A stretch of 64,000 nt of DNA, from NCBI GenBank assembly GCA_010672825.2, contig JAAHFU020000002.1:880001-944000 (forward strand), given 5' to 3'. The notes below the pieces were generated by a model. That model was not told the origin of the DNA. It did not search any database and saw nothing but the letters and a program-made list of their open reading frames with translations. The stretch comes from Leptolyngbya sp. SIO1E4. GTDB taxonomy: Bacteria; Cyanobacteriota; Cyanobacteriia; Phormidesmidales; Phormidesmidaceae. Positions 45,178-63,965 of the stretch are shown one piece after another; the stretch's first letter is position 1, and each line of letters starts with the position of its first letter. A program made the translations under genes and the position numbers.

Positions 45178-45984
45178 TCAGCTCAACTCCCTGACGGTTT
45201 CAATTGGTAATCCGAGGGTCTCGGCAACTTGTTCTGGAGATAGTCCGATCGCTAAAAGTTTAGGGACTGCCGCTCGCTGGGCTTGCTCGGCTTGTTCGGC
45301 TCTTTCCTGAGCTTGCTCGGCTCGCTCTCGCTCTTGGTCACGAGATTGGATGGATTCGGCGTAGCTGGGGAGTCTCTCACCTGTTTTAGGGTCATAGAAG
45401 CGGAGCGATCGCGGTAAAGCTTCTCTCCCCACCACGCTTAGCGCGATTTCGTCAGGAACGGGCAAGCACAAATCTAACCCCAAAGCGGCACTGCTCATCA
45501 CCCAGGTACCCTCAGGGGTTTCTTCTAGCGGTAGGGGTTGATATTGATCCTCAACCAGGACAAACCCCTTGAGTTGGGGAGTCAGATAGTCTCCGGTGGG
45601 GTCGTACTGAAAATATTCCTGCACCCCAAGCTGGGCATAGAGCTGGGGTTTAGTGACTTCGTCCTGTTTTTTCGTCGTACGAGAGGTGATTTCCAGCACA
45701 AACGCGGGGACTTTGCCCCCTTCTTCCCAGGTTTTATAGCTGCGGCGCTTGCGCTTACTCACCCCGAATACCACAAACACATCCGGCGACACAACGGCCT
45801 GGGGATTACCTGCTTCGTAGTAGATAAACAGATTACCTGAAACGTAAACCTGACGGCGACTGCGAAAAAACAGCTCTAAAGCTTCCACACAATAGGTCAG
45901 GGAGTCTCGCGTTGGATCACTCTCGGTCATGGGTTGCCCATCGGATTCGGGGTAGTGGATGAGGGTGCCGGATTGAAAGGTCAT
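45178..45984 (-). CDS. Uma2-family (DUF820) restriction-endonuclease-like protein
   Basis: A 268-residue protein of the large cyanobacterial Uma2 family with a PD-(D/E)xK fold: PQAVVSPDVFVVFG, FVLEITSRTTKKQDEVTKPQLYAQLGVQEYFQYDP, with the Asp and ExT...K active-site pattern. The C-terminal 55 residues form a charged coiled coil (SRDQERERAEQAQERAEQAEQ) and a helix LLAIGLSPEQVAETLGLPIETVREL. The family expands in cyanobacteria and its role is unsettled. ATG 45984 has GGAG 8 bases upstream. Confidence 0.93.
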   Translation of the reverse strand: MTFQSGTLIHYPESDGQPMTESDPTRDSLTYCVEALELFFRSRRQVYVSGNLFIYYEAGNPQAVVSPDVFVVFGVSKRKRRSYKTWEEGGKVPAFVLEITSRTTKKQDEVTKPQLYAQLGVQEYFQYDPTGDYLTPQLKGFVLVEDQYQPLPLEETPEGTWVMSSAALGLDLCLPVPDEIALSVVGREALPRSLRFYDPKTGERLPSYAESIQSRDQERERAEQAQERAEQAEQAQRAAVPKLLAIGLSPEQVAETLGLPIETVRELS

Positions 45985-48181: not shown

Positions 48182-50308
48182 TTAGTGCTGGGGATCTATG
48201 GTGGCTTGAATTTGCCGATATAGATGACAGAGATATCGGGCTTTGAGTAGCTGGGCGGATTGATCACCGGGGGCTTGTGTCAAGTTTCGGATGACGTTTG
48301 CAAGTGTGGTCATGCCAATGTTTTCAAAATGGCTTACTTGCTGGGTCAGTGCTTTGAAGGAGGTGCGATCGAGGGCGTAGTCTCCTCGTTCTGCGATGAG
48401 TTGAATATCCGCCATGAATCTTTCAAGGGGCAGATTTGTGCTGACAAGCAGGTTGTCTGAGCTAACCTCGGATTCGTCGGTGGAGTCTGCCGCCAGTTCT
48501 GTGGCTAGGTTGGCGGTTGATTGGGCTATTGAGTTAGCGGTTGAGTTGGCAGTGGCAGTGGTCTGTTGAGAGAACTGTAGATTGAGGATGCTGGTCTGAC
48601 CAGCATGTGTCTGACGACAGAGCGCGATGGGATAACAATAGAGAGTGCCTTTTTCCACAGAGATAGCGCCCACAATACCCAATATCCCTGCCTCAACGGG
48701 ATCTAACTGTTCTAGGGTCTCTAAGGCTGCTGATTCAGTCGAGGTGAAGCGGACTCTGAGGATTACGGGGCGATCGCTCCGGTCAAGCACTGCCCAAGTC
48801 AGGGTCTGCTGCACGGGGTCAAAGTGACGGACTCCCCACTGGTGAGGCCGGATCACCGCAAAGCGCGCCAAAGGTGAAGCCTCTGTCAGCCCCACAGGCT
48901 GTGTGCTGAGGATGTGCTGTTTGAGAGCATCCCAGTCCTGGAAACAGCAGCCTACAGACATCCAGTCATTAGGCTGGGTGGGCCGTAAGGGAATGCCAGC
49001 GGTTTGGCGAGAACTTGAGAGCCGTCCTTGATAATTGCGGCGGGCATTGTATAGGCACAGGCAGCTTTGCGAGGCCTCGGCAGGGTGGGTAATGCCTTCC
49101 CAGGGGCCAGGCTGATAATAGACTTGAATGGGGTCAAAGCCACCGCGATGAAAGCGGGGTCGCGCTTCTGACCAGCTACACCACTGCTGCGCGACAGCAT
49201 CCCAAAAAAGAACGGTCAGCCCGCTGTAGCCAGACTGGGTTTGCCAAGAGTAGGCTCCCATGCCGATCAGTTCCAGGCGGCCAATATTTTCGTAGTGGCG
49301 CTTGGCTTGCCCGGCCAGATGCACAGGATAACTGGGCGCAGTTTGCTGTAGCGCTGTACCCAGGGCGAAGGTGTGGGCCATCTGCTCAAACAGCCGCTCT
49401 GTATCGGCTGCCGCATCTCGCTTGAGGCTGAGGTCGATCTCTGCTGCGATGCTCCGCAATGCCAGAGCCAGGCGGGGCAGTTTGGCTCCCTGGGCAGAAA
49501 CAGACAGGGTGACAAATTGCTCATGGCTGGTGCTAGAGAGATGCAGTAAACCGATCGCAACCGTTCTCTTGAGCAGGGTTTGGGTATGGACGATGACGCC
49601 GGTTGCAGCTGCTTTACTGGCCTGGCTGGCCTGATTCGCCTGACTGGAATTAGGTGTGGATGGCGACTCTGGGAAGGCAAGAACAATACCCTGCGATCGC
49701 AACCCTGCAAGCACTGTGGCAACCTGATGCAGGCATATCTGGCGGGCTTTACAAGAACACAGCATGCCGGTTAGCCCCGTCGCAGGAAAGTAGCGGCAGG
49801 TGACGTTAGCCTGAGGAAAGCGTCCGATGATAGCCTCTGCGACTTCAATTTCATAGGGCTCTCGATTGAGAAAAGCCAGGGCTTCTCGCACCGTGGGTTT
49901 ACCTGCCCATTTCACCAGATCTACTAAAGCATAGGCCGGTAGCTGCGGCGACGGCGGCGCTGCTGAGGCGGGGGATGTCGATTGCACCTCAGGAGAGGGG
50001 GTTTGCAGCTGAGACCGCCCCCACAGGTAAGCCGCTAACAAGTGGCGGCAAACATTGGTCGCCGGGCAGGTGCAGTGAGCCTCCAAGAAGCCTGTAGCGG
50101 GTAGCGTCACCGTGAAACCGTCAACGTTCCAGACCAGGCTCTCGGTGCTGTGTTGCAATTGGGGGACTGCGCCTTTTTGCAGATCCTTTTGGGCCCGACG
50201 CACCAACCCTTTGCTCGCAGCGATAGCCAGCGCTTCATCATCTAAGGCCAGCAGCTGGGGGCGAAACAGTTCCAGGCGATTTTCTACGCGATTTTCTGCG
50301 CTAGCCAT
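48182..50308 (-). CDS. SWIM zinc finger protein (YehQ-like)
   Basis: A 708-residue protein with an N-terminal SWIM zinc finger (CTCPATNVCRHLLA, Cys79, Cys81, Cys87, His89) and a second Cys/His cluster (CSCKARQICLHQVA, about 185-200). SWIM fingers bind DNA or proteins. The long remainder is cytosolic, with no recognised catalytic motif. Its start overlaps the stop of the VWA gene by 25 bp, implying tight co-translation. It is the last gene of the minus-strand half of the MoxR/VWA locus, corresponding to E. coli yehQ by family. Confidence 0.88.
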   Translation of the reverse strand: MASAENRVENRLELFRPQLLALDDEALAIAASKGLVRRAQKDLQKGAVPQLQHSTESLVWNVDGFTVTLPATGFLEAHCTCPATNVCRHLLAAYLWGRSQLQTPSPEVQSTSPASAAPPSPQLPAYALVDLVKWAGKPTVREALAFLNREPYEIEVAEAIIGRFPQANVTCRYFPATGLTGMLCSCKARQICLHQVATVLAGLRSQGIVLAFPESPSTPNSSQANQASQASKAAATGVIVHTQTLLKRTVAIGLLHLSSTSHEQFVTLSVSAQGAKLPRLALALRSIAAEIDLSLKRDAAADTERLFEQMAHTFALGTALQQTAPSYPVHLAGQAKRHYENIGRLELIGMGAYSWQTQSGYSGLTVLFWDAVAQQWCSWSEARPRFHRGGFDPIQVYYQPGPWEGITHPAEASQSCLCLYNARRNYQGRLSSSRQTAGIPLRPTQPNDWMSVGCCFQDWDALKQHILSTQPVGLTEASPLARFAVIRPHQWGVRHFDPVQQTLTWAVLDRSDRPVILRVRFTSTESAALETLEQLDPVEAGILGIVGAISVEKGTLYCYPIALCRQTHAGQTSILNLQFSQQTTATANSTANSIAQSTANLATELAADSTDESEVSSDNLLVSTNLPLERFMADIQLIAERGDYALDRTSFKALTQQVSHFENIGMTTLANVIRNLTQAPGDQSAQLLKARYLCHLYRQIQATIDPQH

Positions 50309-51474
50309 TCTGCTAACCTCCGAGGCGTTAGGGCCGCAATTTCCATGCCGTTGGCAGCTAACTGCTCTGCCATCCCGACATCATAGAAGGCGTTGGCTTG
50401 CGAATCGTCCAGCGATGCCAGCCCCAGCAGGGTGACGCCCGACTCGTGCAGTTGGTGGCAGCGGGCCAGCAGCTCTCGTGGAGATGCCCCTTCGGCAAAG
50501 TCGCTAATCAGCACCAGTACCGTTCGGAGGGGGTTATGCACCCGGGTCTGGCAGTAAGCGATCGCCTGACCAATGTTGGTGCCCCCCCCAAGTTGGACGC
50601 TCATCAACAGCTCCACCGGATCGTCAGCATGATCCGTGAGATCCACCACTGAGGTGTCAAACACGACGAAACTCACCTGGAGCGAGGGTAACCCGGCCAG
50701 AATCCCCCCCATGACGGCGCTGTGGATCACCGAGTCAGCCATGCTGCCGCTTTGATCGATACAGAGAATGACGTGCCAGGGCAGACGCCGCTCTACCCGT
50801 GAGAAGAACTTGACGGTTTGAATCACAAGCTGTTCGCGATCGCGATCGTAATGCTTCAGATTACGGCGGAGGGTGCCCCGCCAGTCCAGGTTTTGGGCCA
50901 CCTTGAGGGGGCTGTGGCGAAACCGGTTCAGCTTTCCTCGCAAACTGCGGCGAATGTCATTTTCCAGACGATTACGAATGTCTTCCACCACTGCCCGCAC
51001 AATTCGCCGAGCTGCCTGAAGCACGGCCTGTCCCTGCATTTGGGTGCGAAAGGTCAGCACCGCCTTCAGCAAATCCATATTCGGCTCCAGGGTCTCCAGG
51101 GTCTCTGGATTATTGATTAGCTCTGTCAGACCATAGCGATCCAGGGCATGTTTCTCAATAATTTCAACCGTCTCTTTGGGAAACAGCTCCCGAATTTCAG
51201 TAATCCACGTTGGCACCGTGAGCTGACTGGGGTCGAGGCTGCCTGGGTGCTTCTCAGAGGATTGGCCGGGCATTGACTGCCCCCCGGAGGATTGCCCTGA
51301 TTGCCCCCGAATGCCCCGCCCTTGATATTCCTGACCATACAAAAAATCGAGGGCCTGCTCCATCCGCTGCTGCTGCCCCGTCATGGAGCAGGGCAGTTTT
51401 GCCTCAGCAAAGCGTCCTAAAACATAGCGCCACCGTAAAACGGGGTTGGGGTCTCTCGGTTCCTGCTGTGTCAT
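50284..51474 (-). CDS. VWA domain protein (YehP-like)
   Basis: A 396-residue protein. A helical N-terminal region (about 1-230) precedes a von Willebrand factor A domain with an intact MIDAS (ILCIDQSGSMADSVI, about 236-250; the second site in GGGTNIG and the third in VLISDFAEGA). It ends LTPRRLAEWLAQKIA. VWA proteins paired with MoxR ATPases act as metal-dependent adaptors in chelatase-like or assembly machines. A low-complexity GQSGQSSGGQSMPGQSS linker lies at 57-73. It follows the DUF5682 gene with 2 bp between them and overlaps the SWIM gene. Confidence 0.93.
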   Translation of the reverse strand: MTQQEPRDPNPVLRWRYVLGRFAEAKLPCSMTGQQQRMEQALDFLYGQEYQGRGIRGQSGQSSGGQSMPGQSSEKHPGSLDPSQLTVPTWITEIRELFPKETVEIIEKHALDRYGLTELINNPETLETLEPNMDLLKAVLTFRTQMQGQAVLQAARRIVRAVVEDIRNRLENDIRRSLRGKLNRFRHSPLKVAQNLDWRGTLRRNLKHYDRDREQLVIQTVKFFSRVERRLPWHVILCIDQSGSMADSVIHSAVMGGILAGLPSLQVSFVVFDTSVVDLTDHADDPVELLMSVQLGGGTNIGQAIAYCQTRVHNPLRTVLVLISDFAEGASPRELLARCHQLHESGVTLLGLASLDDSQANAFYDVGMAEQLAANGMEIAALTPRRLAEWLAQKIA

Positions 51475-51476
51475 GG

Positions 51477-54005
51477 CTAGCGCTTGGCCTCCTCTAGGGT
51501 CAGCCAGTGGGATAATCCGTCCTGGGCTAATATCTGCTGTACCTTTTGCTCCATTGCTAAACCTTCGTGCAGTTGAGTTTCAGTTGCACTGGTGTGAACT
51601 AGACGACCGAGATCCGTTCGTCCGTGCAGCTGCGCGGCGATCGCCGCCACCTTGTCCGTTTCCCGGGGAATCAGGTCAGCGAAAGCGAGCCTTAGCTCCG
51701 GCAGCACCCGCAGAAACTCATCCTCGCTCCAGTGCTCCAAACGGGCATTGATAGCGGCAATCAGCTCCGGCAAATGCCAGGTCACCTCTCGACAGGTGCA
51801 GAGGAGTCCTCGCAAAAAGCCAACGCCCTGGACGGGGTCTGCTGCAGCGTGATCCAGGTATCCAGCGGCCAGCGTTACCAGCTCCGTTGTCTCCATTCGC
51901 CCAGCACTATAGAGAACGCCAACTGCCCCGCCGAGAATGATGGGGTTTCCCTGAGTCGTCAGCAAATTCAGCAGTGCTTCAACAAACAGCTCTCGGTCTA
52001 GATCTCCCTGGGCCCAGAGGATTTCCCACACGCGATTAAACGCCTCTAGAACGGTTGGCGTTTCTTCCACTGGGCACTCCGCTAAGTGAGGGATCTGATA
52101 GCACAATCGCTGGTAGGCAACGGTTGTGAGCTGGGGTACGGTTTCCAGCGTCTGTGCTTGCAGCGGTTCACGGGACTGCCAGAGCAGCAGCAGTTGCCCG
52201 ATCGCTTGGGCCAAAGAAACCACTGAGGGGTCAGCAGCGACATGATCGGCAATCAACGCTAGCAACTGTGTGGTTTGGGTGTGCAACCCCATCCGACAAG
52301 CGGTGATTAAGAGCTGAACAGCAGCGGTGGCGGAGCGGGCCTGTCCTTCTTCTGCCAAGGCAGCTATCTGCTGGCGCAGGTGATACAGGGCTAATTCTGC
52401 CACCGTAGAGCCGTAGAGTGATTGCTCAATCAAGGTGCTCTCTGTTTGAGGCTGCCAGCGATAGCTCCAGTGTTCTTGAATCTGATTCAGCTGGTTGCCG
52501 AGGACAAAGTCTGGCCCCTTGGTGAAACGGGCAAAGGGAATCTCAGCAAAAGTTAGACTGTGCAAAAAACGGCTGAGCTGGCGGTGACGATCTTGGCGAT
52601 AAATGTCGAGGGTGAGGGATTTGGGCTGGGCCGTTGCTAGCTGAAGGCGGAACGTCTGAGCCCGTTGATGAAAGTCTTCTACCAAGGGCGGCACTCCTGC
52701 ATGGTGGGGTAAATTGCCAATGCGATCGCCCCGCAGCGATCGCGCCACCACCGACATCAGAATTCCCCCTTCCCCCTCCATGGTGCCTTTGATAAAGCAG
52801 CTGCGGATGGCGTCTAGCAGGTCTTCACGGGTAGGGCCAGGATGGTGGCGAAACTGGGCCAGTCGCTGGGCCTGCTCTGCTGCTGCAATTTCATCGGCAA
52901 CGGAGAGCGAGGCCAGTATTTTCTCCTCACAGGTCAGGCTTCGAACCTGCAACAGGACTGCGTAGGCAGTTTGCATCAGCGCTTCGGTTGAGGGCTGCTG
53001 CATCTGCTCCCAGAGCTGTTGATAATAGGCCGGTGCAGGCATTCCAGAGGCATAGCCATTAAGGGCATCTAGCTGCTCAAAGCTAAAGCGCATCAGCACT
53101 GTTTGGGCACAGCCTGCAGAGAGTTTAGGGGCAGGCGGCACTGCAGGGGGAGACTCGACCAGGGCGGGTAGCGCCACAGTATGGAAGCCACCAGTCACTA
53201 CCAAAACAGGGCCATCAACTGCGGGCAAAATAGTCGCGATCGCCTCAGCCATGGCCGCTTCCCGAGCTAAGGTGCCCTCTGCTACCAGGGTGTCTAGCGG
53301 GGTTTCTTGCCGCGCTAAATAGCAATAGGTCGCGATTTGGCGAATGAAATCAGGGGTCGGTATCCCCTGGCAATGGGCTTCAAACAGATGATCCCAGAGT
53401 TCGTTGAAATCGCGGCAGCCGGTCTTTTTTGCCAGGGCGGAAAGATAAGTGCTGTGCTGTAGGTGATGCTCTGCCTGCAAAGCGCGCAGTCTAGGGGTGG
53501 CGTCGCAGTCGGCTTGGGCGGCGATCACCTTTTGGGGATAGGGCAAGTCGATAAACTGCAGCTGTGCCCCGATCGCAGCCCCAGTTCGCAAAGCGACGAA
53601 CTCCGGTGAATAGTCACAAAAAGGATAGTAGCCCCCAAACCGCAGCGGTTCTGCCTGGCGATGGCTGCCTGCCTTGGGCTGGCCTGGGCGATCTCCACCA
53701 GGCTGATCAGTTTGCGCTGCGTTGGATGCAAGGCTCTCAGCCGGGAGCAAATGCCCGTCACGATCTACGTAGGTGGTATAAATCGCGACAGGTGTCTGGG
53801 TGTCTGGGTGTAGCAATAACGGAATCAGATCCGTGGCATCGGCGGGTGCCTCGATCAAGACAGCAGCGGGTTTTTGGGCCAAGATCCATTGCTGAACGTG
53901 CCAGGCGCAGGCCGGGCTGTGGTGCCGAATCGGAAAGAACGTTAACCGCTCTTGTTGGAGCGATCGCAGCACATTCTCTAAAGGTGGCAGAGGAACCATA
54001 GACAT
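51477..54005 (-). CDS. DUF5682 protein (YehM-like)
   Basis: An 842-residue protein. The N-terminal DUF5682 core has FFPIRHHSPACAWHVQQWILAQKPAAVLIEAPADATDLIPLLLHP, then SPEFVALRTGAAIGAQLQFIDLP and VVTGGFHTVALPAL, reminiscent of TraB/ChaN-like folds with conserved His. The C-terminal half is alpha-helical and repeat-like. The function is unknown. ATG 54005 is used; 53999 is equally possible, and the longer frame is unconserved. It heads the minus-strand half of the locus and diverges from the DUF4132 gene across 412 bp. Confidence 0.9.
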   Translation of the reverse strand: MSMVPLPPLENVLRSLQQERLTFFPIRHHSPACAWHVQQWILAQKPAAVLIEAPADATDLIPLLLHPDTQTPVAIYTTYVDRDGHLLPAESLASNAAQTDQPGGDRPGQPKAGSHRQAEPLRFGGYYPFCDYSPEFVALRTGAAIGAQLQFIDLPYPQKVIAAQADCDATPRLRALQAEHHLQHSTYLSALAKKTGCRDFNELWDHLFEAHCQGIPTPDFIRQIATYCYLARQETPLDTLVAEGTLAREAAMAEAIATILPAVDGPVLVVTGGFHTVALPALVESPPAVPPAPKLSAGCAQTVLMRFSFEQLDALNGYASGMPAPAYYQQLWEQMQQPSTEALMQTAYAVLLQVRSLTCEEKILASLSVADEIAAAEQAQRLAQFRHHPGPTREDLLDAIRSCFIKGTMEGEGGILMSVVARSLRGDRIGNLPHHAGVPPLVEDFHQRAQTFRLQLATAQPKSLTLDIYRQDRHRQLSRFLHSLTFAEIPFARFTKGPDFVLGNQLNQIQEHWSYRWQPQTESTLIEQSLYGSTVAELALYHLRQQIAALAEEGQARSATAAVQLLITACRMGLHTQTTQLLALIADHVAADPSVVSLAQAIGQLLLLWQSREPLQAQTLETVPQLTTVAYQRLCYQIPHLAECPVEETPTVLEAFNRVWEILWAQGDLDRELFVEALLNLLTTQGNPIILGGAVGVLYSAGRMETTELVTLAAGYLDHAAADPVQGVGFLRGLLCTCREVTWHLPELIAAINARLEHWSEDEFLRVLPELRLAFADLIPRETDKVAAIAAQLHGRTDLGRLVHTSATETQLHEGLAMEQKVQQILAQDGLSHWLTLEEAKR

Positions 54006-54299
54006 CGAGAGAGCTTTAACCGGTCTTTTGCAGCTATCAATCCAACTGTATCGGCCCAAATGCCGGACGCATCGTCACCTACCCGAATCCTTAGCTAAAA
54101 AATGAACCTTGTATTTGAGTGAGTATGCAGAAACGATGCGTTTATGGTTCAATTGTACTATGTTCTCGATGTTACGGATAGTGACTGGAGCCAACATCTG
54201 CTCAGGGAAAGCGGGCAGATTAGACGAATAGCCTCGTTGCGGATGGTATCTAGCAGTGTGCATGGCGTTAAGCCAGTCCAGATCACTCAGCTGCTCTCT

Positions 54300-54410
54300 A
54301 ACTGAGCTTTGTATTCATCCTGCCGCCTTCATCCTTTCTTTCGACTTCGCTCAAGACAAGCTGCCTTCATCCCTCCGCCTTTATCCTTCTGCCTTTTGTT
54401 ACAGGAGCGA
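54300..54410. repeat. Pyrimidine-rich TTCATCC/TTTATCC/TTCTGCC tract
   Basis: Short direct repeats (GCCTTCATCC, GCCTTTATCC, CTTCTGCC) and TTCGACTTCGCTCAAGACAA lie between the divergent promoters. Such tracts are common dispersed repeats in filamentous cyanobacteria. The repeat gives a false N-terminal extension to the DUF4132 frame. Confidence 0.6.
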
Positions 54411-54417
54411 TCACCCG

Positions 54418-57400
54418 ATGATGCCAGACCTCAAAAACCCCCTCAGTCTCTCTCCAGCAGTGCTGAAACCCTTGAAAAGCTGGCTTTCAATGTTTGGAGA
54501 GCTAGACATCGGATTTCCTGACAGACTCCTGCGCTATCTCGTGGATGGTGAAGATGAAGCAGTGGTGGAAGCGGTTGTGTCCGCGGTGCATTATCAGCAG
54601 ACGCAGTACATGAACGGGTTGAATCAGCAGCCGTTCACGCATCAGTCCTCCCTAGTTCGGCCAATCTTAGGATTGCTCCAGCACGTTGATACTGACGACA
54701 ATCCCCTGCGGAAAATTGCGTCTTCGATAGCCATGTCAGAGATTAGCTTCCTTGGTCGGCTGGTCTATCTATGGGGTAATTTCTCTGAAGGGGCTGTCTA
54801 CACATATCTCTCTTCTGGGCAATCATCTAGACAGGTGTCGATACAGACATGTCTACAGCCTTTGAAGCATTGCCTGCTGAAGTTTATTGAGAGTGTGACA
54901 GTACCCCAGCGCTGGGGTACTCAAGCGGCAACCTGCCCTGTCACAGCAGAGATGATCGATGCCCTGTATGTTGAAGCAGGGGAACCTGCTGGAACCCTAT
55001 GCCGCATGGCTTATATCATCGACCCCAGTGATTACAGGGAAAGCCAACTGGCGCTACATATCGTTCACCTGGATGGGTTTGCAGAGTACACCCTGAAACA
55101 CATATCCATTGTGCAGGAAGCGCTTCAGCAGCCAGAGCGAGGGCGTCGTATCCATGCCCTGCAACTGTTGACGAAAGAGAAAGTGCCACCTGGTGAATTC
55201 ATCGATATGCTGGTCAACCTTGCCGTGTCATCTGCCAAGACTGAACGGGAACCTGCAGGGGTCTTGCTGCAGCAAGACCCGCAAGCTGCAATCCCTCTCC
55301 TGCAAACGAAAGCTGAATTAGGCAGCTCCAGTGAGCGTCAACACGCTGTCAAGCTGCTGTGGGAGTTTGCTGGCGACGCCATGAGACCGTTTTTAGAGGC
55401 ACGGTTAGAGGCTGAAAAAGCCGCGAAGGTGCGATCGACCCTTGAGCAGCTCATGACAACGGTGAGTGAAGTCACTGTGGAAGCATCCTCCGTCGCGCTG
55501 CCCCCCTTGCCCCCAGTCGATTTCGAGGCCCCGCTTCCTAAAAGCGCTTTGGACCTCTGCGAGCATATTAGAGAAGAATATCGACAGTACTTGTTGCACG
55601 AAAATCCGTCACGGGATCCTCAAAAACTTGATTGTGTTGTCGATTCAATGCTGTCAGCTCTCATTGCTCGCTTACAAACAGGCACCTACGAAGACTGCAC
55701 AAAGCGCCAACATGGGTTTTGGAACCGTAGCTCATTAAAAGAAAAGGCTAGAACTCTGATGACGCTGGCAGATTTCCAGCTCATCCATGCCATGCGACTC
55801 GTCATTCTTTTAGGATGCGTGATCTCTAAAGAATGCTCTAGAAATCCTTACCACCTAGTCCTCAATGATGATGGCCATAACTTGTTGTTGCTTTATTCCA
55901 GACATCACTCTGAAACCAATGATTTACGCCAGTTAGCGACCGTCTTTGAGGTGCTGAAGCTAGATCCAGAGTTGATTGGGAATGAACTCCTCAACAACCG
56001 GCAGAATAGAGGCTTTTGGCGGTGGGACGATGACGCAATCTGGCCTTATTTTGCAGAGCGATTGCATCGGTTGCAAGATACGTTAACCCTCAAAATTGAC
56101 GCAGACTGGTGGGCTCGATATGAAAGTCGTGGGCTGCGGGCCAATGCGTTTAGGGTGCTGAAGACGTTTCCACAACCGCCAGCCCATTTAATCCCGATGT
56201 TTTGGGAGTTAGCCTTCCATGGGCCAAAAGATGAGCGCATCATTGCCCGAAACGGTCTCAATACCCTGGAAGATACCCAAGCTCGACTCCTGACAACGTT
56301 GTCTGATCCGAATCGTGACAGGCGGATGGTGGTGGCTGAATGGCTCGGCGATCGCAACGATGCAGCGGCAATTGAGCCCCTTAAACAAGCACTGAAAAAA
56401 GAAAAGAGCGAGGGGGCTAAAGATGTCATGCTGCGATCGCTCGAAAAGCTGGGTGCTTCGGTAGATGACTTTTTAGACCGGAAACACCTTCTGAAAGACC
56501 TGCAAAAATTCCTCAAAAAAGGAGTGCCATCAACGCTGGCCTGGTTTCCCTTTGCCACCCTGCCCATTATCCACTGGCGTGATACGGGCGAGGTTGTCGA
56601 TCCTGACATCCTCAAAGGGCTGATATTGCAATGCTTCAAGCAAAAGACCCCGGAACCCGGCCCCATTCTGAGACGCTACGTCGATCAATGGCAGGCGGAT
56701 GATCGAGAAGCCCTGGGACAGTTTGTGCTAAAGAGCTGGATTGCTCAAGATACGATTCCGACATACACGCCTCAAGAAGCTGAGCAGCGGGCACAACGTT
56801 TGGCAAATCAGGAGTTTCAGTATTATCAGCAACTTCAACAGCAGCATCCAAACGCTATTGGCGCGTATTACTCCGTCACCTATGATCAGCTGTACCAGAG
56901 ACATTACAGCCAGCTCATCAGCGACTGCAAAGGCAGTGCCACCAAAGAGAAGGGCATTCTAGCGATCTCGTCAGCCTGCTGTGGTGCGGCAGCGATCGCC
57001 CCCATCAACACCTACCTCAAAACCTGGTACGGCAAGCGCATGGCCCAGTGCAATGCCCTGTTACAAACCCTGGCCTGGCTTGAAAACAACAGCGCCACCC
57101 AACTTTTACTCTCGATTGCTAATCGCTTCCGCACGAAAAGTATTCAAAAAGAAGCCGCAAAGTTAGTGAGTAAACTGGCTGAACGCAAGGGTTGGAGTCG
57201 CGATGAGCTGAGCGATCGCACTATTCCCACCGTTGGGTTTGACCAGGGCGTTGAGCAAGCCCTGGACTATGGCAGTCGTCAGTTCACGCTGCTGCTGGAT
57301 GCTGACATGAATTTGGTGCTCAAAAATCCAGACGGAAAGGCGATCAAATCCCTGCCTGCTGCCCGCAAAACCGACGACCCAGACCTGGCTAAAGCCGCTA

Positions 57401-58200
57401 AAAAACAACTCTCGGATGCAAAGAAGCAGCTGAAGCAAGTGCTCAAGATGCAGCGAGAGCGCCTGTACGAGGCTATGTGTACCCAGCGCTCCTGGCGATT
57501 TGCTGATTGGAACCTCTATCTCAACCAGCACCCCATTGTCGGGCGCTACTGTCAGCAGTTGGTGTGGGCCATCTACGACGGCGATACTCTGGTGCAAACC
57601 TTCCGCCCTCTGGAAGATCGCACCTTCACCGATGCCGAAGATGAAGCCGTCACCCCTGCTGCAGAGGCGGTTATTCGCTTAGTCCATAGCGGTACGGTTT
57701 CTACAGACACAGCGACGGCATGGCAAACTCACTTGGCTGACTATGATGTGATGCCCCTGTTGCAGCAGTTCCGCCCTCATCCCTATGGTTTGCCCGTGGC
57801 TCAGCAGCAAAACACTCAGTTGACAAGCTTTGAAGGGCATTTGATCGAGGCTTTCCAGCTCAGAGGGTTAGCCGCTAAGCGGGGCTATACTCGGGGGCAA
57901 ACCCAGGATGCAGGCTGGTTTTACGACTATCGCAAAGCCTTCTCTAGCTTGGGCATAGAAGCCGTGATTGAATTTAGTGGCAACTTTCTGCCCGAAGAAA
58001 ACCGAACTGTGGCCCTCACCCGTCTATCCTTTCGCCAACTCCCTGAGGAGGCCGAGGCTGATTACTCATATAGCTACACCGAACTGCCCCTGGGTGACAT
58101 TCCCGCCGTACTGCTGAGTGAGACCTGGAATGACCTGCAGGCGATCGCGGCTCAAGGCAGCGGCTACGATTCTGACTGGCAGAAAAAAGTAGAGTACTAA
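54418..58200 (+). CDS. Large helical-repeat protein with C-terminal DUF4132 (YehI-like)
   Basis: A 1260-residue cytosolic protein. The first two thirds are HEAT-like helical repeats (for example LDGFAEYTLKHISIVQEALQ and EWLGDRNDAAAIEPLKQALKKEKSEG). The last 350 residues contain DUF4132: LYEAMCTQRSWRFADWNLYLNQHPIVGRYCQQLVWAIYDG, FRPLEDRTFTD, VRLVHSG-like, HPYGLPVAQQQ, and AGWFYDYRKAFSS. Start ATG 54418 has AGGAG 10 bases upstream; the frame upstream is repeat-derived. The moxR gene begins 2 bp after its stop. The function is unknown. Confidence 0.9.
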   Translation: MMPDLKNPLSLSPAVLKPLKSWLSMFGELDIGFPDRLLRYLVDGEDEAVVEAVVSAVHYQQTQYMNGLNQQPFTHQSSLVRPILGLLQHVDTDDNPLRKIASSIAMSEISFLGRLVYLWGNFSEGAVYTYLSSGQSSRQVSIQTCLQPLKHCLLKFIESVTVPQRWGTQAATCPVTAEMIDALYVEAGEPAGTLCRMAYIIDPSDYRESQLALHIVHLDGFAEYTLKHISIVQEALQQPERGRRIHALQLLTKEKVPPGEFIDMLVNLAVSSAKTEREPAGVLLQQDPQAAIPLLQTKAELGSSSERQHAVKLLWEFAGDAMRPFLEARLEAEKAAKVRSTLEQLMTTVSEVTVEASSVALPPLPPVDFEAPLPKSALDLCEHIREEYRQYLLHENPSRDPQKLDCVVDSMLSALIARLQTGTYEDCTKRQHGFWNRSSLKEKARTLMTLADFQLIHAMRLVILLGCVISKECSRNPYHLVLNDDGHNLLLLYSRHHSETNDLRQLATVFEVLKLDPELIGNELLNNRQNRGFWRWDDDAIWPYFAERLHRLQDTLTLKIDADWWARYESRGLRANAFRVLKTFPQPPAHLIPMFWELAFHGPKDERIIARNGLNTLEDTQARLLTTLSDPNRDRRMVVAEWLGDRNDAAAIEPLKQALKKEKSEGAKDVMLRSLEKLGASVDDFLDRKHLLKDLQKFLKKGVPSTLAWFPFATLPIIHWRDTGEVVDPDILKGLILQCFKQKTPEPGPILRRYVDQWQADDREALGQFVLKSWIAQDTIPTYTPQEAEQRAQRLANQEFQYYQQLQQQHPNAIGAYYSVTYDQLYQRHYSQLISDCKGSATKEKGILAISSACCGAAAIAPINTYLKTWYGKRMAQCNALLQTLAWLENNSATQLLLSIANRFRTKSIQKEAAKLVSKLAERKGWSRDELSDRTIPTVGFDQGVEQALDYGSRQFTLLLDADMNLVLKNPDGKAIKSLPAARKTDDPDLAKAAKKQLSDAKKQLKQVLKMQRERLYEAMCTQRSWRFADWNLYLNQHPIVGRYCQQLVWAIYDGDTLVQTFRPLEDRTFTDAEDEAVTPAAEAVIRLVHSGTVSTDTATAWQTHLADYDVMPLLQQFRPHPYGLPVAQQQNTQLTSFEGHLIEAFQLRGLAAKRGYTRGQTQDAGWFYDYRKAFSSLGIEAVIEFSGNFLPEENRTVALTRLSFRQLPEEAEADYSYSYTELPLGDIPAVLLSETWNDLQAIAAQGSGYDSDWQKKVEY

Positions 58201-58202
58201 CC

Positions 58203-59327
58203 ATGGCCAATACCGTTCGCCCCCCTGCCGAAGCCCGCTATGCCGATGAGTTAAAAGCCCTGGCTGCCAACGACCCCCACCCAAAACCCCCCGGCTGGAA
58301 GCTGTCTCCCCGAGCGGTACGCACCTTCATTCTGGGGTCCGATGGGGAGACCCTCAGCTACAAGCAGGGTCGCAAGACCCATAAAATTGAGATCGCGCAA
58401 AAATTTTACGGGGACGATGCCCTTGTTGATCGCTGTGTGGTGACGCTGGCAGGCAATCGGGGCCTGATGCTCGTGGGTGAACCTGGGACGGCTAAGTCCA
58501 TGCTGTCGGAACTCTTTTGCGCCGCCATTTCTGGCGATTCGACCAACACGATTCAGGGCACCGCAGGCACCACCGAAGACCAAATCAAATACTCCTGGAA
58601 CTATGCCCTGCTCATTGCTGAAGGCCCGAGCCCTAAGGCGTTGGTGCCTTCACCCCTCTATGTCGCCCTGAAACACGGTCGCCTCGTACGATTTGAAGAA
58701 ATTACGCGCTGCCCGCCCGAAATTCAAGATGCCCTGGTCAGCGTGCTGTCAGATAAGGTGCTGATGGTGCCTGAGTTGGACGGTGCAGAGCGGGTGCTGC
58801 TGGCTCAAAAAGGATTCAACGTTATTGCGACGGCCAACATTCGCGATCGCGGCGTGAATGAAATGTCGAGTGCTCTGAAGCGGCGCTTCAACTTTGAAAC
58901 CGTTGCGCCCATCGCCGATAAGACCCTCGAACAGCGCCTCGTGATGGAGCAGACCCAGGCCCTATTGACAGAATCGGCAGTGCCAGTGGCGATCGCCCCC
59001 GACGTGATTGACCTGTTAGTCACCACCTTTCACGATTTACGCCAAGGCCGCACCACGGAAGGAACCGTTGTAGAGCGTCCCTCAACCATTATGTCCACCG
59101 CAGAAGCGGTCGCGACGGGGGTTTCGGCAGGGTTAGATGCCCACTATTTAGGAGATGGCGTGGTCACCGGTGAGCACATCGTTCGCAACCTGGTCGGCAC
59201 CGTCCTTAAAGACAACCCAGACGATGCTCAAAAGCTAACCCACTATTTCAATGTTGTGGTTAAAAGCCGTGCCCAAACAGACCCTGGCTGGCAGGCCTAT
59301 TACAAAGCTCGCAAGTGGCTGAAATAG
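58203..59327 (+). CDS. MoxR-family AAA+ ATPase (YehL-like)
   Basis: A 374-residue AAA+ ATPase. Walker A GEPGTAKS (92-99), Walker B LVRFEEITRCPPEIQDALVSVL, sensor 1 NVIATANIRDRGVNEMSSALKRRFNFE with the arginine finger region, and a C-terminal lid. MoxR ATPases remodel client complexes with VWA partners, so the VWA protein across the divergent promoter is the likely partner. The 2-bp gap after the DUF4132 gene indicates one operon. Confidence 0.94.
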   Translation: MANTVRPPAEARYADELKALAANDPHPKPPGWKLSPRAVRTFILGSDGETLSYKQGRKTHKIEIAQKFYGDDALVDRCVVTLAGNRGLMLVGEPGTAKSMLSELFCAAISGDSTNTIQGTAGTTEDQIKYSWNYALLIAEGPSPKALVPSPLYVALKHGRLVRFEEITRCPPEIQDALVSVLSDKVLMVPELDGAERVLLAQKGFNVIATANIRDRGVNEMSSALKRRFNFETVAPIADKTLEQRLVMEQTQALLTESAVPVAIAPDVIDLLVTTFHDLRQGRTTEGTVVERPSTIMSTAEAVATGVSAGLDAHYLGDGVVTGEHIVRNLVGTVLKDNPDDAQKLTHYFNVVVKSRAQTDPGWQAYYKARKWLK

Positions 59328-59425: not shown

Positions 59426-60508
59426 TTATGCGTTCGACTTACGTTTGGCGAGTAAGCCGCCGATGCCAACCGCGATCGCCGTGCCAATGATCCCTGCAGG
59501 TTCTGGGACTGAGACCGACTCTGAACTCACCTGGCTAATAAAGGTGTCAAAGATTTGGGTATAGTTGCGGCTACGTTCTTCAATCAGGCCGGGGAAGACC
59601 GCATTGATAAACTCTAGATTATCGGTTTCCGGATCATGCCAGGTTGCCCCGCCTGGAACCAGCGGATTTGCCGTCTGAGTATAGCCATCCAGGGCCCCAA
59701 TTTCCCAGTTGGTGGCCTCTCCGGCCAGGACAGGAACGACCTTATCAAACTCTTCCAAGTCGCTACAGCAGCCTGTTCCAGCAGGATAGGCCGGATTCAA
59801 CCCCGGATTCGTTCTGGCCTCGATGCCCAAGTCTGCTGCAATATCCAAGGCTTTATCTCTAAAGCGACCGTAGCTTGGCTTCTCTGCAGCTCTAGGCCCG
59901 GCATTCAAATACAGATAATCGCCTACGATCAGACTATCCAGATTGATCATGAGGAGCGTGTTGTCAATCTCCTTTTCCGACATGGTGCTAACGTAGTGCT
60001 CTGCGCCGACCAGCCCCACCTCTTCAGCCCCAAACAAAATGAACTTGACGCTGTGTTTGGTTTCAGGGGCGAGCCGTTGGGCTAATTCCAGCAAGACGCC
60101 GACGCCAGAGGCATTATCATTGGTGCCCTCTAGGTTTGTGCGATCGAGGGTAGCGCTACTAGGTGCCGTATCATAGTGAGCCCCCACAATAATTTGTTTG
60201 TTAGATATCCCTTGCCGCTCAGCGATGATATTGGCAGAGGTATATGATTCGTCTTGATAGTTGAACGTGAATTCTTGCAGCTCTGGGGTAAAGCCAAAGT
60301 CCCCGAGTCGTTGGCTGAGGTAAGAGACCGTTTCTTGTTCTTTTTCAGTGCCAATGCTGCGACCGGCTAGGTTGTTGGAAAGATAGTAAATTTCTTGAAC
60401 TGCCGTCTCACCGTAGGTAAAGCTAGCAGCTGATGCAGCTGTTACCAGTACGGCTTGAGCAGCAACGGGTAAAATTGCATACCCTGTGAACTTTGTAACT
60501 AAATTCAT
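59426..60508 (-). CDS. M28-family metallopeptidase with PEP-CTERM sorting signal
   Basis: A 360-residue exported aminopeptidase-like enzyme. A signal peptide (about 1-28, ending TAASAASF) precedes an M28 domain with the di-zinc motifs VGAHYDTAP, LEGTNDNASGVGVLLELA, FGAEEVGLVGAEHY, INLDSLIVGDY and the late ATWHDPETDN. A CCSDLEEFD segment adds a possible disulfide. The end is a PEP-CTERM anchor (VPEPAGIIGTAIAVGIGGLLAKRKS), recognised by an exosortase that must be encoded elsewhere. Its substrates are extracellular peptides. Confidence 0.92.
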   Translation of the reverse strand: MNLVTKFTGYAILPVAAQAVLVTAASAASFTYGETAVQEIYYLSNNLAGRSIGTEKEQETVSYLSQRLGDFGFTPELQEFTFNYQDESYTSANIIAERQGISNKQIIVGAHYDTAPSSATLDRTNLEGTNDNASGVGVLLELAQRLAPETKHSVKFILFGAEEVGLVGAEHYVSTMSEKEIDNTLLMINLDSLIVGDYLYLNAGPRAAEKPSYGRFRDKALDIAADLGIEARTNPGLNPAYPAGTGCCSDLEEFDKVVPVLAGEATNWEIGALDGYTQTANPLVPGGATWHDPETDNLEFINAVFPGLIEERSRNYTQIFDTFISQVSSESVSVPEPAGIIGTAIAVGIGGLLAKRKSNA

Positions 60509-62717: not shown

Positions 62718-63965
62718 CTACGGGTTATTGCTGAGTCCCTTGATGACAGCGCCATAAAGTGTAGACAGGCGCATTTCATCGAGGGGCGCTTCTGAATGAT
62801 TCCAAGTCATTGAAACACAATAAGTCTTGCCACTTTCAGCTTCTAGCTGATGGGTCAAATTTAAGACACCAGGGATAGACCCCCCTTTAAAGGCGACCCT
62901 AGCCCAATCTTCGGCATTGACAACCCCCGGTGCCGGGTTCACACCCATGAGGGGTAAATCTGCCACCTGAGCCATGAGTGCACAGAGTTCATGTGGGGTG
63001 AAAAAATATCCAATCTCTGATGCTGTGAGTTGTTCCTGAGATTGCCCTTCGTGGGTGCTGCTTGCAGCGCCCACATCAGGGAGGGGATAGCTCGCGATTT
63101 CATCCAGTATTTGCTGTCGTCCCTGCAGTGAGCTGAGGCTGCGATAACGCTCTAGCACCGATATGTTTTGGGGCGCTTTCAGAATAAAAAATTCGCGGGT
63201 TGTTAAAAATGGGCGGTTTCTGAGAGTGTAGGCTTCTATGGATGCTCGTCCGAGCACGTGAATCAACGCATCAGTGGCGGTGTTGTCACTCATAGAAATC
63301 ATCAGGGTGGCTAACGTTTCTAAGGTGAGCTGCGTTCCATCTGGCCAGGTGTGCAGGAAGCCACTGGGTAAACTTTTCCACTCAGGGCGGAGTTCAACCA
63401 CATCTCCCCAAGAACGCTGATCTGATTCAATTTGCTGACGCAGCGCCGCTAGGACTGCCAGCTTGAAGGTAGAGCCAACTGCCAGGGGATTGTCAGCGTT
63501 GAGGGCTGCTAATTCAGACTGGTCTTCTAACACTAGGAAATTAACCTCTCCCGGAAAAGCCTGTAGCTGTTCAATCGCCTCGTCTAAACTGATGGCCATG
63601 GGCGCAGGCTGAAAGAACAACCCTGCGATCTGACCGCGACTGTTGAGGGTAATTTGAGCAGCGACTCGACCCCGTTCAAAAAGCACGAGATAAAGCTCTC
63701 CGGATGGCTGCACCTCCTGATAAGCGCCGAAATCTGCCTGCATCTCTGCAATCAATTGCTGCGCCTGCGACAGCGGAAACTGGTTAAGCATGGCCGGAGC
63801 AAACCACTCGGCTTGAAGCTGGGGAGTTGTGAAGAGTCTTTCCAGGGCAGCTTGGGGGGAGATTTGCATTTGCGCGATCGCGGATGAAGGGATTGGGAGC
63901 ATCGAAATCGCAGGGATAGCTCCCAAAACGAAAGAGAGGGTCATCAGGGGGCGGGGCATTTTCAT
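62718..63965 (-). CDS. Class A beta-lactamase-like serine hydrolase
   Basis: A 415-residue exported protein. A signal peptide (MKMPRPLMTLSFVLGAIPAISMLPIPSSAIA) and an N-terminal extension (about 35-140, RLFTTPQLQAEWFAPAMLNQFP, cystatin/NTF2-like) precede the transpeptidase fold with SxxK (VGSTFKLAVLAAL), SDN (MISMSDNTATDAL) and KGG (VAFKGGSIPGVLN). The class A Glu166 region is not obvious, so it may be a DD-peptidase-like or low-activity enzyme rather than a true beta-lactamase. The 71-bp gap to the repeat protein holds no feature. Confidence 0.85.
   Translation of the reverse strand: MKMPRPLMTLSFVLGAIPAISMLPIPSSAIAQMQISPQAALERLFTTPQLQAEWFAPAMLNQFPLSQAQQLIAEMQADFGAYQEVQPSGELYLVLFERGRVAAQITLNSRGQIAGLFFQPAPMAISLDEAIEQLQAFPGEVNFLVLEDQSELAALNADNPLAVGSTFKLAVLAALRQQIESDQRSWGDVVELRPEWKSLPSGFLHTWPDGTQLTLETLATLMISMSDNTATDALIHVLGRASIEAYTLRNRPFLTTREFFILKAPQNISVLERYRSLSSLQGRQQILDEIASYPLPDVGAASSTHEGQSQEQLTASEIGYFFTPHELCALMAQVADLPLMGVNPAPGVVNAEDWARVAFKGGSIPGVLNLTHQLEAESGKTYCVSMTWNHSEAPLDEMRLSTLYGAVIKGLSNNP

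Follow-up and report, generated by a model that had tools for sequence, protein, structure and literature searches.

What does a MoxR/VWA gene cluster do when its neighbors are proteins of families as obscure as DUF5682 and DUF4132? We addressed this question for five adjacent genes in a 64,000-nucleotide stretch of Leptolyngbya sp. SIO1E4 (contig JAAHFU020000002.1, positions 880,001 to 944,000 of the forward strand), which we refer to as the window. Our answer, given with moderate confidence, is that these genes specify a remodelling machine built on a YehL-type MoxR and a VWA protein, with a hydrolase-like DUF5682 subunit and a recognition arm of the HEAT/SWIM kind.

The open reading frames (ORFs) bear out the layout proposed in the initial annotation, namely five genes packed tightly, with an overlap or 2-bp (base pair) gaps, into two divergent operons. 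The minus strand carries a YehQ-like SWIM protein (48182..50308, 708 amino acids), a CoxE/YehP-like VWA protein (50284..51474, 396 amino acids) and a YehM-like DUF5682 protein (51477..54059, 860 amino acids from a TTG codon), while the plus strand carries a YehI-like DUF4132 protein (54256..58200, 1314 amino acids from a GTG codon) and a MoxR AAA+ ATPase of the YehL type (58203..59327, 374 amino acids). The SWIM and VWA ORFs overlap by 25 bp, and 2 bp separate the ORFs of the VWA/DUF5682 and DUF4132/MoxR pairs.

The proposed equivalence to yehI, yehL, yehM, yehP and yehQ of E. coli was confirmed by blastp against the proteins of E. coli K-12, in which every window protein matched its counterpart. 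MoxR matched YehL over nearly its full length (51% identity over 368 columns, E 4e-120), and the aligned parts of the VWA, DUF5682 and SWIM proteins matched YehP (43% identity, E 5e-99), YehM (30%, E 2e-50) and YehQ (25%, E 2e-15), respectively. The match of the DUF4132 protein to YehI (29%, E 3e-37) was limited to the C-terminal ~360 residues. Pfam assignments agreed for MoxR (AAA_5, 127.2 bits, above cut-off), VWA (VWA_CoxE, 169.9 bits against a cut-off of 26.4), DUF5682 (341.8 bits against 26) and DUF4132 (147.7 bits against 27), and the SWIM protein scored 16.2 bits, under the Pfam SWIM cut-off of 19.6. The E. coli locus has the order DUF4132-MoxR-DUF5682-VWA-SWIM, with yehI-K-L-M-P-Q on one strand, whereas in the window DUF4132 and MoxR face the opposite way to the other three genes, an inversion that gives two divergent operons. 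Unlike E. coli, which has yehK, the window has no yehK-like ORF between DUF4132 and MoxR.

Published knowledge of these genes is sparse. YehL is an established branch among the seven subfamilies of MoxR AAA+ proteins (PMC3893208), and the window MoxR shares with it both the sequence identity given above and a VWA gene in the locus; as far as the available text of that source goes, the subfamily is described with no function and with no mention of DUF5682, SWIM or scaffold partners. Scattered reports list yehQ in a table of butanol-tolerance candidates (PMC6442406) and among uncharacterized stress genes (PMC9501238), yehM mutations among those in many other genes of copper-evolved E. coli populations (PMC12409786), and a change in the yehK/yehL intergenic region (PMC6881287), none with a mechanism in the parts available. 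We found no function for the yehLMPQ/DUF5682/DUF4132 system in the literature searched, which mostly excluded subscription journals, so an older description may exist.

Composition of the DUF5682 loci

DUF5682 loci were gathered from named records and sampled genomes, and their ORFs were scored with profiles from the window, from E. coli and from annotated DUF5691 proteins. This gave 43 loci, after removal of L005, which covers the stretch already counted as L047. A partner was counted only at E < 1e-20, and hence the DUF4132 of L046, detected by Pfam, stands outside the 12 DUF4132 loci counted here. MoxR was found in 37 loci, VWA in 37 and both in 35; because the loci were found through DUF5682, these counts show what accompanies DUF5682 and not the reverse. 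Among the eight loci that did not have both partners, L007, L017, L040 and L052 are either short contigs or stretches at a contig edge, and L006, L013, L015 and L016 have DUF5682 alone at the locus, with MoxR and VWA relatives elsewhere in all four genomes. Nearly all loci in which the three genes stand together keep the order MoxR-DUF5682-VWA, the exceptions being L018 (VWA-MoxR-DUF5682), Sinorhizobium and Agrobacterium (DUF4132 in between) and the rearranged type of the window and L004. DUF5682 and VWA are fused into one polypeptide in L040 and L046.

The remaining two components vary together. Type A loci, found in the window, E. coli, Nodosilinea, a planctomycete, Sinorhizobium, Agrobacterium, Iodobacter, Nonomuraea and Proteus, carry DUF4132 and a YehQ-type SWIM protein. 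Type B loci (other cyanobacteria, Deinococcus, Methylosinus, Rhizobium, planctomycete-phylum genomes and Hymenobacter) carry a different SWIM protein and DUF5691 upstream of MoxR, with the SWIM motif CSCPSRKFPCKH or close variants of it in most, and the Hymenobacter locus (L031) encodes SWIM and DUF5691 as a single polypeptide. A third group (L032 of Fusobacterium, L041 and L043) has SWIM and a protein of ~600 amino acids, in which HEAT repeats were detected for L043 (E 5.7e-8), and in L045 a single protein combines SWIM with HEAT. DUF4132 and DUF5691 were never found at the same locus (0 of 43), and the SWIM type follows the scaffold: it is YehQ-type in 11 of 12 DUF4132 loci and the other SWIM in 13 of 14 DUF5691 loci, with no cross pairs. 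In G220, a SWIM-DUF5691 pair lies away from the core genes. In Sinorhizobium and Agrobacterium, DUF4132 lies inside the operon, between DUF5682 and VWA, and is therefore a true operon member there. Together, these patterns of gene content support a core of MoxR, DUF5682 and VWA that forms one functional unit, accompanied by a second, exchangeable unit made of SWIM and a large scaffold, here DUF4132.

Co-occurrence was then scored over whole genomes, 194 from the cyanobacterial phylum and 149 from the planctomycete phylum, with presence defined as a match over the Pfam cut-off. Below-cut-off matches were dropped for DUF5682 in G054 (E 8.8e-4) and G263 (E 1.9e-4) and for DUF5691 in 8 cyanobacterial-phylum and 7 planctomycete-phylum genomes, and the doubtful DUF5691 matches of G255 and G336 (~27-28 bits) were kept. 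By Fisher tests, which ignore shared ancestry, DUF5682 and DUF5691 were strongly associated in the cyanobacterial phylum (10 and 8 genomes, all 8 among the 10; p 1e-12) and in the planctomycete phylum (18 and 9 genomes, 7 shared; p 3.5e-6), and DUF4132 was associated loosely with DUF5682, with 8 DUF4132 genomes in the former (2 of 194 shared, p 0.057, on different contigs in G004) and 18 in the latter (6 of 149 shared, p 0.01). In the cyanobacterial stretches L083 and L084, DUF4132 is accompanied by no other component within the 18 kb covered and therefore has other uses.

The genes are also retained where they are not neighbors. On the single contig of G002, MoxR lies at 0.46 Mb, VWA at 1.64, DUF5691 at 2.57 and DUF5682 at 4.30 Mb, and on that of G066, DUF5682 lies at 0.73 Mb, VWA at 2.31, MoxR at 3.09 and DUF5691 at 3.88 Mb; the unlinked genes of these two genomes, which belong to one genus and are hence not independent, show identities of 63% for MoxR and 48% for VWA. 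DUF5682 also stands alone in the draft genomes G118 and G196, with MoxR and VWA relatives on other contigs, although in G196 the MoxR relative reaches only 47% and the VWA relative 37% with an internal stop. Trees of 34 loci (L005, L007, L017, L030 and L052 were dropped as duplicate or fragments) gave MoxR, DUF5682 and VWA distances that correlate at 0.89-0.94, a figure with no species-tree control. The direction in which the loci were found, the neglect of ancestry in the tests and in the tree distances, and the weak relatives in G196 all count against reading these patterns as functional linkage. The type A loci are split off as a bipartition by the MoxR (0.999) and VWA (0.993) trees, but the DUF5682 tree, which places L046 with L018, does not recover it.

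The initial annotation had treated the five families as one machine and expected them to co-occur beyond chance. Co-occurrence of this kind was found for DUF5682 with DUF5691, MoxR and VWA went with most DUF5682 loci, and DUF4132 followed DUF5682 only loosely. Likewise, core order, fusions and retention when unlinked speak for a functional set, but not for an obligate five: that version was rejected on the loose co-occurrence of DUF4132 with DUF5682 and on the many relatives in which DUF5691 or HEAT-type proteins replace DUF4132.

Conserved residues and predicted folds

DUF5682 had been taken for one of two giant scaffolds. We found instead that its N-terminal domain carries a set of conserved residues in an order resembling that of a known superfamily. 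All are encoded on the minus strand, and their conservation was scored on rows that exclude L005 and the duplicate window row: His46 in a first GxxH-like motif, PIRHHSP (53922..53924, 41/43 rows); Glu70 in VLIEAP (53850..53852, 41/43); Asp171 (41/43); Arg266 in REAAM (53262..53264, 42/43); and His293 in a second GxxH motif, GGFH (53181..53183, 42/43). An alignment of 27 DUF5682 members has the invariant order R-H ... E ... S-P-E ... D ... R ... G-x-x-H, and nine aligned TraB sequences have the similar order GTxH ... E ... R(N/D) ... GxxH. DUF5682 thus has the TraB pattern of two GxxH motifs with a Glu between them, the first Gly being G in 27 of 43 rows and P in 13, the window among the latter.

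Structural comparison pointed the same way. A model of residues 20-453, built on 4 sequences and leaving the C-terminal half outside, was compared with known structures by VIA-align, and the nine PDB entries listed with Z >=5 were without exception of the TIKI/TraB/ChaN/Ere type, three of them by inference. Three Tetrahymena complex IV entries scored Z 10.0-10.7, HopBA1 and ChaN 8.2, and EreC and Bcr135 6.3-6.5; the next entry was MeaB at 4.2. A figure legend describes a TraB-family accessory subunit in Tetrahymena complex IV (PMC10060162), and the matched chain is presumably that subunit. The TIKI superfamily is described as including HopBA1, Bcr135 and ChaN and as having a 2His/2Glu site (PMC6254334, as far as its available text goes). 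DUF5682 resembles the TIKI/TraB/ChaN/erythromycin-esterase superfamily in the structural matches of its model at Z 6.3-10.7 and in the pattern GxxH-like...E...R...GxxH. It differs in lacking the first Glu of the Ere/RRSP set, in having an inserted stretch and a C-terminal region, and in adjoining MoxR/VWA genes.

Several observations weigh against this fold assignment. The first Glu (ExH) of the 2His/2Glu set of Ere and RRSP is absent from DUF5682, which has Ile or Val at that place, and the activity is therefore uncertain. That Glu is missing as well from the nine aligned TraB sequences, which have GTxH instead, and thus marks the Ere/RRSP branch and not the whole superfamily. The model has a mean predicted local distance difference test score (pLDDT) of 53.9, a low confidence overall, with most core strands and helices at ~70-95. 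A Foldseek search with it returned no significant match (best E 0.24), and the alignment tool itself cautions that a Z near 8 can be reached by unrelated models. Profile comparison by hhalign gave DUF5682 a probability of 31% with TraB and 2% with ChaN, both weak. Among 12 control pairs the highest probability was 5.7%, for VWA-TraB, and the accepted pair ChaN-TraB reached only 0.1%, with ChaN and TraB alignments that included two fragments of 97 and 44 residues; because hhalign failed to join even this pair, profile comparison cannot decide the fold.

Sequence searches added little in either direction. Pfam matches among the 27 DUF5682 members were weak for TraB (E 0.0066, 1/27) and ChaN (best E 0.055, 2/27), and 16 other families besides DUF5682 itself were matched in the same scan, most in one member only. 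The window protein scored 13.9 bits against ChaN, below the cut-off of 27.7. A PDB profile search with DUF5682 returned nothing useful (one match, E 2.4), and none of the PDB sequences found with the TraB profile was relevant. Based on the model and the residue pattern, the N-terminal domain likely has a TIKI/TraB/ChaN/Ere-type fold, followed by a C-terminal region, and DUF5682 is probably not just a scaffold.

The scaffold description suits DUF4132 better, for which a helical-solenoid character is supported. The second half of this protein models as a helical solenoid resembling the repeats of adaptin, importin and CAND1 (Z ~7-8, within the chance range for repeats), in line with a HEAT_2 match of 22.0 bits, below cut-off; the DUF4132 domain itself spans residues 1027-1211. 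DUF4132 and DUF5691 may both be helical solenoids, a comparison with a model on the DUF4132 side only. Treating the two as one family is unsupported (hhalign probability 1.7%), and a resemblance of the C-terminal end of DUF4132 (model residues 607-724) to YugN/ABC2387 structures at Z 7.8-8.2 lies in the chance range and was not used.

MoxR and VWA carry the residues expected of their families. In MoxR the AAA+ motifs are intact: Walker A, GEPGTAKS (residues 92-99; 58476..58499, plus strand), keeps G92, P94, G95, T96 and K98 in 37/37 rows, and K98, E166, the sensor N212, R227 and R228 are likewise invariant in all 37. The usual Walker B ends in D-E. Here it is E165-E166 (58695..58700, plus strand), and E-E occurs in all 37 YehL-type rows, a possible mark of the subfamily. 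The metal-ion-dependent adhesion site (MIDAS) of VWA has D240, S242 and S244 of its DxSxS motif (50743..50757, minus strand) in 37/37 rows each, T299 in 32/37 and D325 in 36/37. The SWIM protein, below the Pfam cut-off as given above, has two CxC-x5-CxH motifs. The first lies at residues 79-89 (50042..50074, minus strand), where 11-13 of 15 rows retain the four ligands, and the second, which is SWIM-like, at residues 184-194 (49727..49759, minus strand), where 11-12 of 15 retain them.

Gene starts, neighbors and origin of the window copy

Comparison with relatives suggests that both divergent genes begin later than their ORFs. The DUF5682 start is probably annotated too early, since L004-L007 align only from residue 9-28, and the likely start is an ATG at 54005 or 53999. 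The DUF4132 start is probably 54-55 codons too early, since its two closest relatives (L004 and L007) align from residue 51-55, and the likely start is an ATG at 54418 or 54421. With these revised starts, 54006..54417 becomes a probable divergent intergenic and regulatory region, in which a simple promoter scan found no sigma-70-like site.

The initial annotation held that the complete set had been kept in a distant phylum. We found the DUF4132-linked type of locus in this genome only, out of 194 sampled in the phylum, which does not fit simple retention. Among the named records, the window has its closest relatives in a strain of Nodosilinea and in a metagenome-assembled genome of Pseudanabaenales, and in the DUF5682 tree the branch of the window and Nodosilinea stands next to a planctomycete and then Proteus. 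These neighbors, Nodosilinea aside, point to horizontal transfer as the probable source of the window copy.

Elsewhere in the window lie genes for an M28 peptidase (59426-60508), a putative nuclease of the Uma2 type (45178-45984), a CobN-type chelatase (10079-14068) and a beta-lactamase2-family protein (62718-63965). The window looks cyanobacterial: the octamer GCGATCGC, a mark of cyanobacteria, occurs in it 61 times against 1.06 expected.

Some individual loci stand out. The planctomycete genome G195 has two DUF5682 loci, L047 and L051, one with DUF4132 and a YehQ-type SWIM gene beside it and the other without. On a Methylosinus plasmid (L030, 11160-12385), three reading frames share the VWA match, which makes the copy look broken, with insertion sequence (IS) and toxin-antitoxin genes adjoining. 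On an Iodobacter plasmid (L027, 12501-14566), the SWIM match runs over two ORFs, a type I restriction system adjoins, and DUF4132 occurs twice. A search of viral contigs found 5 stretches matching the search pattern, none of them a relative. A 14,207-base record from human feces filed as 'Bacteriophage sp.' (MT835988.1) encodes relatives of MoxR (44%) and DUF5682 (23%), and is possibly a bacterial contig filed as phage.

A putative remodelling machine and its alternatives

Among the closest described systems are NorQ/NorD and CoxD/CoxE, each likewise a MoxR ATPase with a MIDAS-bearing VWA protein. In a proposal made for NorQ/NorD, the VWA protein acts as a plug in the MoxR ring and at the same time contacts the client through its MIDAS (PMC9976466, available text), and this ring-and-plug principle is presumably shared. 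By analogy, the MoxR ring of the window would hydrolyze ATP, and VWA would plug its pore, pass the motion on through the MIDAS metal site, and so couple the ring to DUF5682 and the client. DUF5682, held beside the VWA domain as the fusions in some lineages suggest, could act on the target through its TIKI/TraB-like domain, either hydrolyzing it or handling a metal or cofactor, and the SWIM zinc finger together with the HEAT-type scaffold would choose that target. Either a metalloenzyme or a hydrolytic substrate could be the client. The NorQ/NorD and CoxD/CoxE pairs are described as serving one client enzyme (PMC9976466, PMC3893208, available text), whereas the window locus adds three components, one of them TIKI/TraB-like.

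A possible, if rather doubtful, alternative is that the locus encodes a metal or cofactor insertion chaperone like CoxD/CoxE and NorQ/NorD: the client would be opened for its metal center, perhaps molybdenum, and the ChaN-like domain would carry metal or heme and not perform hydrolysis. Pfam assigns the VWA protein to the CoxE type, MoxR proteins such as CoxD and NorQ are described as acting in metal-center assembly (PMC3893208, PMC9976466), ChaN, matched by DUF5682 at Z 8.2, is annotated as heme-binding, and yehM is among the many genes mutated in the copper-evolved populations (PMC12409786). In addition, E. coli molR, which we infer to be a DUF4132 gene of the yeh group, lies at 47.3 min and was linked to molybdate utilization, going by the title of a 1990 paper cited in PMC4245954. 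However, no recurring client enzyme gene was noticed beside the loci, a point on which no systematic test was made, and in Deinococcus a DUF4132 gene was strongly induced while molybdate genes such as moeA and moeB were unchanged, according to the available text of PMC8533742.

A conflict or defense role, which the initial annotation had listed among its possibilities, appears quite unlikely. Under it, the locus would sense invasion and trigger an effector, akin to the MoxR-vWA ternary systems of Kaur et al. 2020 (PMC7159879), which resemble the window in joining a MoxR-VWA pair to a conserved third component. The spread of DUF5682 is indeed patchy (10/194 cyanobacterial-phylum and 18/149 planctomycete-phylum genomes), plasmid copies exist, and neighbors include a type I restriction system in Iodobacter, a PDDEXK nuclease in Hymenobacter, toxin-antitoxin and IS genes in Methylosinus and, some kilobases off, a type VI VgrG gene in Agrobacterium. 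Unlike the window, the ternary systems are described as having VMAP, iSTAND and the like as third component, with variable effectors. We saw no variable effector modules, and a Pfam scan at E 0.01, in which the Pfam model for each component was unconfirmed, found no VMAP, iSTAND, effector-associated domain or beta-propeller third component among the five proteins. The bpMoxR match of the window MoxR (23.6 bits over 51 residues) fell below the cut-off of 27, and a count of the terms 'yehl', 'swim', 'duf4132' and 'duf5682' in the main text of PMC7159879 gave 0 for each. The sole PADLOC match was a weak one to PDC-S62 (19.4 bits, residues 23-102 of the SWIM protein), and 8 further proteins (6 components of relatives and 2 window neighbors) had none. 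No restriction or toxin-antitoxin gene was found in the Sinorhizobium, Rhizobium and Deinococcus neighborhoods, whose gene tables are incomplete. At least 80% of yehLMPQ is present in 5162/5426 complete E. coli genomes (~95%), unlike an accessory defense island. This wide presence, with the lack of effectors and of PADLOC systems, led us to reject a conflict system as the best reading.

Very unlikely, finally, is a loose neighborhood in which MoxR and VWA are one system and DUF5682, SWIM and DUF4132 travel independently: among the genomes with DUF4132, 6 of 8 in the cyanobacterial phylum and 12 of 18 in the planctomycete phylum do lack DUF5682, and DUF4132 stands solitary in L083 and L084, so that this may be true for DUF4132 alone, but the DUF5682-VWA and SWIM-scaffold fusions, the retention of unlinked genes and the matching of SWIM to scaffold types argue against it.

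For the preferred reading, a remodelling machine with a hydrolase-like DUF5682 subunit, the consequences reach beyond the window. A MoxR-DUF5682-VWA core, a swappable scaffold and a probably TIKI/TraB/ChaN-like DUF5682 domain with named conserved residues make the long-mysterious yeh operon, carried by nearly all complete E. coli genomes, testable in laboratory E. coli. If the DUF5682 domain is active, this would be a MoxR system with its own hydrolase-like subunit, beyond a cofactor-insertion chaperone. A bolder version, which we regard as unlikely and offer tentatively, makes DUF5682/YehM the catalytic subunit of a new ATP-driven hydrolase machine, in which MoxR and VWA would remodel the target for a peptidase-like domain of the TIKI/TraB type and interchangeable HEAT/SWIM arms would choose it. 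If true, this AAA+-coupled hydrolase would be widespread and without kinship to Clp, Lon, FtsH or the proteasome.

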